DNA from: Gammaproteobacteria bacterium
GTDB lineage: Bacteria; Pseudomonadota; Gammaproteobacteria; JAJPIJ01
DNA length: 64,000 nt
Direction: 5' to 3'
NCBI GenBank assembly: GCA_022071965.1
Contig: JAJVIQ010000013.1
Location: 62,001-126,000 of the forward strand
The position numbers and the translations under genes are program-made. Each line of letters opens with the position of its first letter. The first letter of the stretch is position 1. Below, piece after piece: positions 56,973 through 62,299 of this stretch. Under the pieces are notes generated by a model. The model worked only from the letters and a program-made list of their open reading frames with translations. It did no database searches and was not told the origin of the DNA.

Positions 56973-57761
56973 TCACCGCTCGGTGGAATGCCGCAGATCC
57001 ATGATCAGACCGTCCTGCAGCCAGCGCTTGAGCAGGCTTGCCGCGTGCAGCGCCGCATTCTCGCAGAGCTCGTCAAGGCGTTCACACGACTGCCCGAATG
57101 TGCCGCCTGCGGCGAGGACCTCGAGCGCCACGGCCTCCTCGGGCTCCAGCGTGCGGAAAGAGGTCTCCAGTCCCTGGCGCCAGATGAGCCAACGCCCGGG
57201 GTACGCGCGCGGCCTCCGCCCGAAGACGTCCTCGCCGGCCTTGTGGGCCTTCCACAGCTTCGGAACCTCGAATTCGAGCCGCAGCATGCGCACGCATGGC
57301 TGCAGGACGAGCTGCATTGCGGGCCACCGCTCCGGGGCCAGCGCCGCGAGATCCTCAACCCGCAGGCTGTTACTCTCCGCGGAATCGAAGGCCGCCATCA
57401 GCGCCCATTCGAAGGCCGCCACCTCAGCCAGCCAGGGCTCCGCCGCCGTATCGGGGCTGGACTTCAGATGTCTGTCCAACCCGCCGCCGTACCAGCGCAG
57501 GTTGAAATAGGGACTTGGGGTGCTCGCCGTGTACTCACGTCCGATGCGGGTGAACCTCTCTTCACCCAGCGCCGCGAGCAGGGCGGGATAGTCGGCCTTC
57601 AGTGCCCCGACAAGGCGCAGGCGGTAGGCGTCAAGATAGACACCCCGCCGCACCGCGACGTCGGCGCCACCGCTGTCGGCGAACATGCCATCGACGGCCT
57701 TTTCGTCCGCGTCCAGCAGGTAACGCTGGAAACGCTCTTGCAGCTCACGCAGCCGATGCAT
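56973..57761 (-). CDS. DUF2063 partner protein (HvfC/BufC-like)
   Basis: The 262-residue protein starts with the DUF2063 'putative DNA-binding' fold ([62 protein letters not shown]) and ends in a longer helical domain. In hvf/buf operons this protein partners the DUF692 enzyme and helps recognise its precursor peptide. It overlaps the DUF692 gene by 17 bp, so the two act together. The ATG at 57761 begins the homology. Confidence 0.9.
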
Positions 57762-58584
57762 GACCGAGCACGCGCGCGGCGATGGCGCGCGCCTTGTCGA
57801 GTTCACCCACCAACTCCCCCAGCGCCGGAATGTGGTCGTCGCGCTCGATCATGGTCGCAACCGGTCCGAAGCGCCGGATTGCCGCCTCATAGAGGTCCCA
57901 CACCGGATCCGCGATCGGATGGTCGTGCGTGTCGACGATGTAATCGGCATGACGGCTGTGACCGGCAAGGTGGATCTGGCGCACGCGTCCGACCGGGATC
58001 GAATCGATGAAGGTTGTCGGTTCGAAGCCGTGATTGAATCCGCTGACGTAGACGTTGTTGACGTCAAGGAGGATCTCGCAATCGGCACGCTCGGCGACCT
58101 CTCGCAGGAACTCCCATTCCCTCATCACGGACGCGGAGTAGCTCACGTAGCTGGATACGTTTTCCAGCAGAATGCGGCGCCCGAGAAAATCTTGCACCGC
58201 GCCGACGCGCTCCACGACGTGCGCCAGCGCTTCCTCCGTGTAGGGCAGCGGCATCAGGTCATGAAGATTGGTATGCGCCACCCCGGTCCAGCAGAGGTGG
58301 TCGGAGATCCACCGCGGCCGACAGCGCAGCGCCAGGGCCTTCAGCCTCCCCAGGTACTGGCGATTGAGCGGGTCGGTGCCACCTATGGACAGTGAAACGC
58401 CGTGCATGACCACTGCGTATCGCTCTGCGATGCGGTCCAGGAAATAAAGTGGCTTGCCACCGTCGACCATGTAATTCTCGGAAAGAACCTCGAACCAGTC
58501 GACATCGTGGTCTCCGGCGAGCACGGCTTCATAATGCACGGTGCGCAGGCCGAGACCAAAACCCAAGGAGGGGGCTGCTTCCAT
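57745..58584 (-). CDS. MNIO-type iron enzyme (DUF692, HvfB/BufB-like)
   Basis: The 279-residue TIM-barrel protein of the multinuclear non-heme iron oxidative (MNIO) family carries the expected iron ligands and neighbours: EN at 36-37, His61 in HGVSLSIGG, Asp95-His96 in SDHLCW, Glu141 in ENVSSY, Asp174 and Asn176 in DVNNVYVSG, His205/His209 in IHLAGH, and D218xHDH at 218-222. MNIO enzymes oxidise Cys (and other residues) in ribosomal peptides. A DUF2282-type precursor would normally lie upstream; none is found here. The ATG at 58584 has no clear ribosome-binding site. Confidence 0.92.
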
Positions 58585-58709
58585 CGACGCAAGGATAACG
58601 CAATCGGCTGGGTTACCGGCATGGATGCCCGGCGCCCCGCCACGATTACACCCACGCGCCGCGATCGCGCCGAGCCGCCAGTCTGCAGCCCCGCATCCTG
58701 CGGGCGTTC

Positions 58710-59603
58710 TCAGGCGGCGAGCACGGCGAGGGTCTCGGCAAGCAAGGCCCCGGCCTCGCCGGTGATGGCGTCCTGATCGTTGACCGCGAGCGTTCCTATG
58801 AGGGCGACCGCCGCCGGGTCTATCTCCGCCGTGGGGCTGGTGGTTTCGCAGAAGCCGGCAATTCCCGAGCGGTTCGCCAGCACGTCGGCCACGTGCACGA
58901 CGGCGGCCTCCAGCCTTGCCGCCTGGGCCTTGCCCGGCTCGTGGTGCCATGTGGTCGCTTCGCACAGCGTTTCGGGAAGATTCCATGTTGCGAGCAGTAA
59001 CCCCCCCAGCTCGGCGTGCGTGAACCCCAGCACGTCGCTCTCGGCATGGCATAGCACCTGTTCGTCACCCTGCGCGGTCAACAGCAGTTCGCCGGCTACT
59101 TCCGGCAGGTTGCGATAAAGCACGAGGCTGCCGACATCGTGCAATAGCCCGGCGATGAACAGCCGTTCCGGGTGCAGGACCCCGCAGTGCTTGCCGAGGA
59201 GCCGGGCGAGCAGGCCGGTGTAAATCGCGTGACGCCAGAACACGTCCATGCTCACCAGCTTGCTCGGCAGGTTGCGGAACGTGCGGACCGCCGAGATCGC
59301 CAGCACCATGTTGTGCAACTCGCGCGTGCCGATGACGGTGATGGCGCGAGAGACGGTGTCCACGCGGGCGCGCAGTCCCACCGCGGCGCTGTTGACCAGC
59401 CGCAGCAGCCTGGCGGTCAGATTCGGGTCGCGCAGGATCACCTCGCCGAGGTCGTGGATGGAGCAATCCGGCGACTGCAACAGCTCGGTCACCTTGATGC
59501 AGATGTCCGGTGGAGAGACCAGCCCCTTTACCGATGCCACCAGCCCCTGAGCCGTCGGCCGACCGGTCGGTACCTGGTGCACAGCCGCGGATGCATGCCC
59601 CAT
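58710..59603 (-). CDS. HDOD domain signalling protein
   Basis: The 297-residue protein is a full HDOD domain: [20 protein letters not shown] at 30-49, the HDOD core [20 protein letters not shown] (57-76), and [14 protein letters not shown] with His155-Asp156. Metal ligands are incomplete, typical for HDOD, which binds partners rather than nucleotides. It often modulates c-di-GMP, stress or motility pathways. It is transcribed with the MNIO pair (126 bp ahead) and follows the DUF1631 gene. Confidence 0.92.
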
Positions 59604-59641
59604 TTATGGATCCTCGTTGGAAAATCGGTGTCTTGTCGTCA

Positions 59642-62299
59642 TTAGCGGCGGCGTGCGACCCAGGTTGAGGGGTCGAGCAGGCGGGTGAAGGCGCGGTCCA
59701 GAAGTGCCGCCGGCTGCTGCGTCACGCACGCCGTACCTCGGCGGAAGTCCGTCACAAGTCCGTTACGCGTGCGATCGGTGAGTCGACGGCCGCTGCGGTC
59801 GGAGAATACGTAAGTCTCGGTCTCCGGAGTGTAGTATGTGTACCGGCCGGCAATGGTCGTGCCGTCCGGCTGTTTGAATTCCAGCCAAGTGCCCGGCTCG
59901 AGCGACATCACCTGCAGAAGATGTGCGTCCTCCTGCTGGGCGACCACCGGGTTGCGGGTGTCCCCGAGGGTGAGCTCCTCGAACTCGAGATCCTGGGTCG
60001 CCGCGGCCTTCGCCTCCCTGCTGGCGTCCTGCGCGAACAGGCGATAGAAGGTGTTGGCCGTCATCTCCAGCACCGAGCGCTCCTTGCGCGCGGCCTGCAC
60101 AGACGGCGGGGGCAGATCGGATGCCGGCGGCATCACCTCTGAGAGTTTCACTTCCTCTGACATGGCAAGTCGCTCCCGTAGTTCCTCAGCGGCGCTCCGC
60201 GCGTTTCCCGGCAACTGCAGGGCAGATTCCGGCACGGGTTCCTGGCTTTCGACGGTCTCGGGCGGCCGCATGAGGTCCACCGGCATGGGTTGAGGATGGG
60301 CGGCCGGCTCCGATTCCGAAGTGGCATCGATGTCGAAGTCGCCCGTATCGGGGATCAGGGCGGTGGCGAGCGGCTCGGTGATCTCGCGCGATGCCGGCGG
60401 TTCCGGCGGCGATTCCCCGGCGATCATCTCCTCCACGTCGCCGCTCATCTCGCCCGTTGTGATGTCGAGGACGCTCGGTTCCTCGTTCACCAGAGGCGGC
60501 GGATCCTCGGCGGTCGTGGCGAGAAGTCCGGTCAGCACGGGCGCGCCATTCTTCGCCGCCGCGGCGGATTCACCGCGCATGGCCTCGGCATGCGACTTCT
60601 CGAGTTTCAGGAGGAAGCCGTTGCGTGCGACAGCGGGCATCGATACCTGCTCCATGCCCTTCTTGAGGTTGGCGAGCAGCTTCGGCAGCAGGCGGCCCAG
60701 TTTCTGCCGCTCCTCGCTGCCGCGCTTGGGCAGCGTGCTCCAGACCAGCTCGTCCATGGTTCGAACCGCCGTGCGCCAGGCGTCACTGTCGGCCCCGTCG
60801 GTGGTGAAGTGGGTAATGAGCAGTCGGCGCCAGTGCATCAGCAGAAAATTCCTTACGACATCGGGTATGCCGTCCGGGCGCAGCCGCGTGTCGAGAAGAT
60901 TGCGCACCTGCTCCTTGGCCTGCTCCAGGCGCGCCCGGCCGTCGAGCATCTTGGCCGTGCGGGAGGCGCGAACTGTGGCCTCGCGCTTCAGTTCATCGAA
61001 GGCCTTTGTCAGCGCCTCCACGCTGCGCGTGAAGATGGCGACGTCCTGGTCGAAATCGGTCACGATGCGTTGCACGACCTCGTCGACCAGCTCGGCGACC
61101 TTCGCCTCCATGATGGCGTCGCCGCCAATCTCGACTGCGGTCTCGGCGATGTGATTGAGCAGGCGTCGTGCCGGGTGGGTCTTGCGCGAAAAAAATTCGC
61201 GGTCGATGAGCGCCACCTTGAGTATCGGGATCTGCAGTCTCGCGAGCTTGGCGCGTATCCCCTCGGGAACGTTCTTGTCCTCGAGGACGTAATCGAAAAG
61301 CATGGCGACGATGTCGATGGTCATATCGCCGGCCGGCCCCATCGCCGGCAAGTCCCCGGAGCGCTGCAGATCGACCAGCAGGTGCGCCGCAACGCCGGAA
61401 GGTCCTCCGCCACCGCCATTGCGCTGTAGGTGCGTCAGCATGCCCATGACCCCCGTATCGAGCGGGATCAACGGCACGGTCCCATGCACGGAATCCGGCT
61501 CGCCGCCGCCGCGCAGCAGCTTCTCCAGCATTACCATGATCTCGGCCTGAGAGGCCGGTGTTCCGGCGCTGTGCGCCGCGCCAGTTCCGCCGCGCCCGCC
61601 GCCGGGCGGCCGGCGGCGGACCTCGGTCTGGATGGTCGGTAGCACGCCCTGCTGGATGAGGTGCTGATTTACCGCGCCGTAGATCTCGGGGATGCCGCTG
61701 ACGACGTAACGGTCGAACAGCTTCAGAACGATTAGCCTGGCCTTGAAATCGACGTCCAGGCCGTTGGCGGCATCTCGTGCGGCCTCGGCGATGCAAGTAG
61801 GACCGAGCGGATTGTCCTCGGAGCTCAGTTCCGGAATCTCGAGCAACACGGAGAGGCGCCTGTTGAGCGCAAAAAGCTCCTCACGACAGGCAGTTGCTAT
61901 CCTCTCGGCCAGGCCGGCGGTCGTAATGTCCTGTTCCATGGTCGCGTCGTCGAGCAGCGAGAGCTTGGTCGGCATGGCGGCGACGGAGCCACGCGAACCG
62001 GACCCGCGACGCCGGCGTGCGTCGAAACCGGTGCCGAAGCGGTCCACGAACACCGCGTTCATCTGGTTGTGCTTGAGCCGCAACTCGCGCATCGCGTCGA
62101 AATACAGCGTCTGCTGCGCGTTCGTCTCGGCCTTCTCGGCAAATTCGAAGAGCACGTCGTCCGCCCGTTCGAGCATCTGCCGGAAGGCCTCCCCGAGCAG
62201 GCGCGAGGCGCATTCCCTGACCGAGCCAAGCAGTTGCGCCCGTCGCGGCGAGGCAGCGGAGGCTATGGCGTCGCGGTCGTTGATTGAGATCACGTTCAT
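59642..62299 (-). CDS. DUF1631 family protein
   Basis: The 885-residue protein spans the full DUF1631 family: N-terminal ECASRLLGEAFRQMLERADD, a central Gly-rich break (about 231-240), LLVDLQRSG and THPARRLLNHIAETAVEIGGD, and a C-terminal PilZ-like beta segment (WLEFKQPDGTTIAGRYTYYT). A long acidic, Pro-rich linker (about 600-745) precedes the end. It has no signal or membrane helix, so it is cytoplasmic. Function is unknown; a link to c-di-GMP signalling is suspected because of the C-terminal part. Confidence 0.9.
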   Translation of the reverse strand: MNVISINDRDAIASAASPRRAQLLGSVRECASRLLGEAFRQMLERADDVLFEFAEKAETNAQQTLYFDAMRELRLKHNQMNAVFVDRFGTGFDARRRRGSGSRGSVAAMPTKLSLLDDATMEQDITTAGLAERIATACREELFALNRRLSVLLEIPELSSEDNPLGPTCIAEAARDAANGLDVDFKARLIVLKLFDRYVVSGIPEIYGAVNQHLIQQGVLPTIQTEVRRRPPGGGRGGTGAAHSAGTPASQAEIMVMLEKLLRGGGEPDSVHGTVPLIPLDTGVMGMLTHLQRNGGGGGPSGVAAHLLVDLQRSGDLPAMGPAGDMTIDIVAMLFDYVLEDKNVPEGIRAKLARLQIPILKVALIDREFFSRKTHPARRLLNHIAETAVEIGGDAIMEAKVAELVDEVVQRIVTDFDQDVAIFTRSVEALTKAFDELKREATVRASRTAKMLDGRARLEQAKEQVRNLLDTRLRPDGIPDVVRNFLLMHWRRLLITHFTTDGADSDAWRTAVRTMDELVWSTLPKRGSEERQKLGRLLPKLLANLKKGMEQVSMPAVARNGFLLKLEKSHAEAMRGESAAAAKNGAPVLTGLLATTAEDPPPLVNEEPSVLDITTGEMSGDVEEMIAGESPPEPPASREITEPLATALIPDTGDFDIDATSESEPAAHPQPMPVDLMRPPETVESQEPVPESALQLPGNARSAAEELRERLAMSEEVKLSEVMPPASDLPPPSVQAARKERSVLEMTANTFYRLFAQDASREAKAAATQDLEFEELTLGDTRNPVVAQQEDAHLLQVMSLEPGTWLEFKQPDGTTIAGRYTYYTPETETYVFSDRSGRRLTDRTRNGLVTDFRRGTACVTQQPAALLDRAFTRLLDPSTWVARRR

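Follow-up and report, generated by a model that had tools for sequence, protein, structure and literature searches.

A bufferin-2-type MNIO–DUF2063 enzyme pair with a probable precursor encoded elsewhere in a gammaproteobacterial genome

The enzyme pair and its surroundings

The stretch of DNA analysed here (the window; 64 kb, G000:C8:62001-126000) belongs to a 3.56-Mb draft genome in 39 contigs, the near relatives of which are gammaproteobacterial metagenome-assembled genomes, and carries an MNIO gene followed by a gene for a DUF2063 partner (Table 1). From its likely ATG, the partner gene overlaps the end of the MNIO gene by 17 nt. The MNIO is a full-length member of its superfamily, as positions 2-262 of the 263 of PF05114 are covered. 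Its iron ligands, assigned by motif and spacing against those of TglH (His71, His107, Glu151, Asp184, Asn187, His216, Asp229, His231 and Glu258; PMC10880893), are H61, H96, E141, D174, N177, H205, D218, H220 and E247, and each of the nine is invariant in all of the 119 aligned homologues (119/119). The catalytic-base position is occupied by D249, and D250 is the residue that corresponds to the Cys-Lys class (both within the motif IERDDHIP). A plasmid search yielded only MNIOs of up to ~61% identity.

The partner combines a DUF2063 domain with an RRE fold, the composition of a PME-type 1 (BufC) protein. Its AlphaFold model (pLDDT 94.5) retrieved NGO1945 (3dee; Z 15.6) and TglI (8hci; Z 14.6) in a fold search, and in the model the RRE fold extends over residues ~150-258 and matches RREs such as TbiB1. 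A likeness to bacteriophytochromes, suggested by a sequence search of the PDB, amounted to chance matches only and was discarded, the fold search being decisive.

Table 1. Features of the enzyme locus (window coordinates) and of the precursor locus (contig coordinates)
Feature	Position	Strand	Remarks
bufB2-type MNIO (PF05114)	57745..58584	-	279 aa; Pfam 370.6 bits, E 5e-111
bufC2-type partner (DUF2063 + RRE, PME-type 1)	56973..57761	-	262 aa; PF09836 58.5 bits
Gap between HDOD gene and bufB2	58585..58709	-	125 bp; usual precursor site in bufABC, empty here
BufA2 gene	~G000:C9:97319-97576		extent read from the sequence
Match to Buf2 precursor within BufA2 gene	G000:C9:97328-97573		E 1.7e-20

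When the 64-kb window was scanned with HMMs in all six frames, from stop to stop (E<10), no Buf1 or Buf2 precursor emerged, the best matches having E-values of 0.6 and 1.2, and no decayed remnant of a precursor gene was found upstream of the pair or on the opposite strand. The original prediction, made from the window alone, was that of an MNIO–DUF2063 pair with all of its iron ligands and with no precursor nearby; the Pfam match, the ligand alignment and the scan of the window agree on each of these points, so that the observation holds. No gene for DoxX was noticed next to the pair. On the same strand, the pair is preceded by an HDOD-domain gene and a large gene with DUF1631 (window 58713-62299). 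A functional tie of the pair to its HDOD, DUF1631, SPFH or NfeD neighbours was considered and rejected, because the layout is common only to the sister species and is absent from the other genus of the family as well as from every other locus fetched.

A second MNIO in the same genome

Searches by family across the genome yielded MNIO and DUF2063 genes in two copies each and a single DUF2282 gene. The second MNIO lies on contig C3 in a textbook buf1 operon, formed by a DUF2282 precursor with four Cys, the MNIO, a DUF2063 gene and a DoxX-like gene, the last of which was assigned by where it lies and by the layout known for such operons, not by a Pfam match. The C3 MNIO has the signature EWDT (in IEWDTALP) and is 52% identical to the window MNIO. 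The window pair has no DUF2282 gene beside the MNIO, the hallmark of a bufferin-1 system, and the sole DUF2282 gene of the genome is the one on C3, with an MNIO of its own. It had been anticipated that a DUF2282 gene in a standard operon elsewhere could reveal the window pair as a decayed copy. Such an operon exists, but the window pair is not its decayed copy: both genes are intact, all ligands are conserved, and identity of 52% between the MNIOs marks the pair as a distinct paralogue.

The window MNIO belongs to the Cys-Lys class

A tree built from 116 MNIOs places the window MNIO among the Buf2-linked enzymes; a separate group holds the Buf1-linked enzymes and with them the C3 paralogue, and a third is formed by ERDF enzymes, several of which have EGKCG repeats nearby. 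Many inner forks of this quick tree are weakly supported, but as far as the window sequence is concerned, the three groups are securely separated. A single active-site residue tells the same classes apart. The Cys-Lys (Buf2) MNIOs have an Asp beside the catalytic Asp, at the position where the Lys-Cys enzymes have a Phe, and this Asp has been modelled in contact with the Lys of the substrate (PMC13097082). Among the 78 MNIOs of the fetched loci labelled as Buf2, the signature is ERDD in 74, ERDE in 1 and ERDF in 3; these last three belong to an adjacent operon and received the wrong label because of distance. The Buf1-linked MNIOs show EWD[TSQN] in 11 of 11 cases. The MNIOs of the EGKCG group are uniformly ERDF, a result that is partly circular because sequences in which no repeat was detected were placed in that group by the motif itself.

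The surroundings of related enzymes point in the same direction. Outside the family, 79 ERDD/ERDE loci have at least 1.3 kb of upstream sequence; a Buf2 precursor is found no more than 900 bp from the MNIO at 71 of them, and at three more a Cys-rich lipoprotein takes its place. Most relatives at 58-70% MNIO identity have, directly upstream, a secreted peptide with six Cys of the form HCYGVNxCKGxxDCxTxxxxCKGxxSCKGxGFV, which is of the Buf2 type. Thus, both its position in the Buf2 clade and the Asp that follows the catalytic Asp identify the window MNIO as an enzyme of the bufferin-2 kind.

Other arrangements were seen around ERDD-type MNIOs. Small lipoprotein-like peptides with 10-12 Cys are encoded directly upstream of such enzymes at loci L015 (1087-1383), L018 (1185-1394) and L021 (987-1244); none of them matched the BufA2 model, and they possibly represent a separate precursor subtype. 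ERDD-type pairs in a Steroidobacteraceae metagenome-assembled genome (L085) and in Legionella nautarum (L091) have no Buf2 precursor, as judged by the model, in the fetched flank of ~6 kb upstream of the MNIO. At six further loci (L084, L093, L094, L099, L104 and L117), BufA2 is divergent from the MNIO, on the opposite strand, an arrangement intermediate between the operon and the full split.

A BufA2-type precursor on another contig

The genome was searched for precursors by family and by known precursor types. With the Buf2 precursor as query, one strong match was obtained, on contig C9 (Table 1), corresponding to the sequence MSVSSKKLTGASLATTAAMLFAFTPAATVHA/EEGAVSCLGINACKGQGSCKTAENACAGQNACKGHGVSLVSAAECSEKGGTIAK, with the slash at the cleavage site, which was placed by eye. 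As read from the sequence, a signal-peptide-like N-terminus is followed by six Cys within CKG, CKT and CAG motifs; the genome therefore encodes a Sec-type precursor with the six conserved Cys of BufA2. The search for an EGKCG/oxazolin precursor in this genome gave no match better than E 0.59, and the presence of such a precursor was rejected.

The BufA2 gene stands alone, with thiamine-synthesis-like genes on one side and a gene for a small membrane protein on the other (neighbours named by eye). The pair is at 120 of 175 kb on C8 and BufA2 at 97 of 167 kb on C9; since both loci are deep inside their contigs, at least ~120 kb must separate them. The usual bufA-bufB-bufC order is thus not found, with the pair on C8 and the precursor on C9. 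A single-operon order is, however, not a necessary feature, because stand-alone Buf2 precursors have already been described (PMC12452194). Simple promoter scans were empty at both loci and thus revealed no promoter or regulator shared by them, which counts against a link between pair and precursor. With two MNIOs (ERDD and EWDT), one BufA2 and one DUF2282 precursor, the enzymes and precursors of the genome match one to one.

We conclude that the window pair is very probably the BufB2/BufC2 modifying complex of a bufferin-2 system (Cys-Lys captophorin type) in which the precursor is encoded at an unlinked site. The original prediction had proposed that the enzyme may act on a distant peptide, and the BufA2-type precursor on another contig of the same genome supports this part of it. 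It had also envisaged an unusual peptide or a full protein as the substrate, which is at odds with a peptide of the described Buf2/Cys-Lys class. A substrate other than BufA2, either an unrecognised peptide or a full protein, would fit with the missing adjacent precursor, with the proposal that long proteins may be substrates of MNIOs elsewhere (PMC12452194) and with the Cys-rich lipoproteins, unmatched by the BufA2 model, that adjoin its close relatives at L015, L018 and L021. We nevertheless regard such a substrate as improbable, as the clade and the ERDD signature predict a Cys-Lys substrate, and the genome, searched by family and by known precursor types, holds one such peptide, which has no other matched enzyme.

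Conservation of the split arrangement

The pair and BufA2 are kept apart in all four genomes of the family (G000-G003), at different places in the two genera. The sister species (G001) shows the same split in the same neighbourhoods as G000, with 92% identity to the window MNIO and 78% to the partner. In G002 and G003, which belong to another genus of the same family, the two loci are also split and lie in other neighbourhoods. G003 lacks DUF2282, and its only other MNIO adjoins an EGKCG-like precursor, which leaves BufA2 for the orthologue of the window MNIO. Co-occurrence in the class as a whole is strong: among 185 genomes, this MNIO type and BufA2 occur together in 35; 15 carry the MNIO only, 3 BufA2 only (these three being without an MNIO above the strict cut-off) and 132 neither (Fisher p 2e-22, kinship between genomes being uncorrected).

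G002 has a second BufA2 gene, in a mixed operon (L066, G002:C4, 4144-6896) where it is followed in turn by a DUF2282 precursor, an EWDS-type MNIO, a DUF2063 gene and a DoxX-like gene. Judged from this gene order, a Buf1-type enzyme may serve both precursor types, and enzymes of this type may thus act on BufA2 as well. Together with the possibility that one MNIO pair modifies several precursors (PMC12452194), the mixed operon would be consistent with the C9 BufA2 being modified by the buf1 enzymes of C3, leaving the window pair redundant or non-functional. This seems very unlikely to us in view of the intact state of the window pair, which retains all of its ligands and the identities in the sister species given above, of the presence of the split BufA2 and pair in G003 in spite of the absence of DUF2282, and of the different signatures of the two enzymes (ERDD versus EWDT). 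It is also conceivable that pair and precursor are both leftovers and that BufA2 works unmodified, roles of this kind having been considered possible for lone precursors (PMC12452194). However, four genomes retain both halves intact in spite of their unrelated locations, which points to selection acting on each of them, and we give hardly any credence to this explanation.

Proposed function of the BufB2/BufC2 pair

If the window pair is BufB2/BufC2, its likely role, by analogy with characterised systems, is the thiooxazole-type modification of Cys residues of BufA2, in trans, for the handling of copper. The RRE of BufC2 would capture the precursor in the cytoplasm by its leader/signal peptide and present it to the MNIO. 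The iron cluster of the MNIO would act together with Asp249 in oxidising Cys residues, with 5-thiooxazoles as the most likely products, and Asp250 would contact the Lys that follows the target Cys. Thiooxazoles are the products formed from Cys in Buf1 and in fontiphorin (PMC12452194). The modified peptide would then be exported through Sec and would bind copper in the periplasm. Possibly, the pair serves as a general trans-acting modifier, of the distant BufA2 and of one or more additional secreted Cys proteins as yet unrecognised; we think this unlikely, though, if true, it would explain the release of the pair from the precursor operon.

Relation to known systems

The view that this locus is the best candidate in the window for an undescribed system finds no support, in view of the Buf2 clade and signature of the MNIO and of earlier reports of stand-alone Buf2 precursors (PMC12452194). 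Most likely, the locus represents a known system in relocated form, rather than a new system, and it adds no new chemistry. New here are the link drawn between an orphan pair and an unlinked peptide, and the persistence of the split across the family. An orphan-looking MNIO pair can thus be assigned to a peptide by its clade and one active-site residue even though the genes are unlinked, and with this arrangement nature provides a setting in which trans action of bufferin enzymes can be examined.

The closest counterpart is bufferin-2 itself (Buf2, Buf_6/12Cys; bufA2B2C2; PMC12452194, PMC13097082), with which the genome shares the MNIO clade, the Asp signature of the Cys-Lys class, the DUF2063-RRE partner and a Sec-type six-Cys precursor with CKG motifs; the difference is that the precursor is alone elsewhere on the chromosome, instead of upstream of the MNIO, and that no DoxX gene is seen beside the pair. 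A six-Cys precursor with DUF692 and DUF2063 has also been noted in Antarctic soil bacteria (PMC8692599). Stand-alone Buf2 precursors, and their modification by the enzymes of another locus, have been described or proposed (MNIO landscape study; PMC12452194), and there too BufA2 is a single-gene unit with its enzymes encoded elsewhere; in our case, however, clade and signature identify the matching orphan pair, and a whole family keeps the split. The bufferin-1 operon of C3 (DUF2282-MNIO-DUF2063-DoxX) has the same enzyme and partner families, but its more distant MNIO carries EWDT in place of ERDD and its four-Cys DUF2282 precursor is adjacent. Lastly, the oxazolin and fontiphorin systems (EGKCG, Lys-Cys; hvf, fon) likewise combine an MNIO with a PME-type 1 partner and have secreted Cys peptides as substrates, whereas their MNIOs have Phe at the position of Asp250 and their precursors contain EGKCG repeats.
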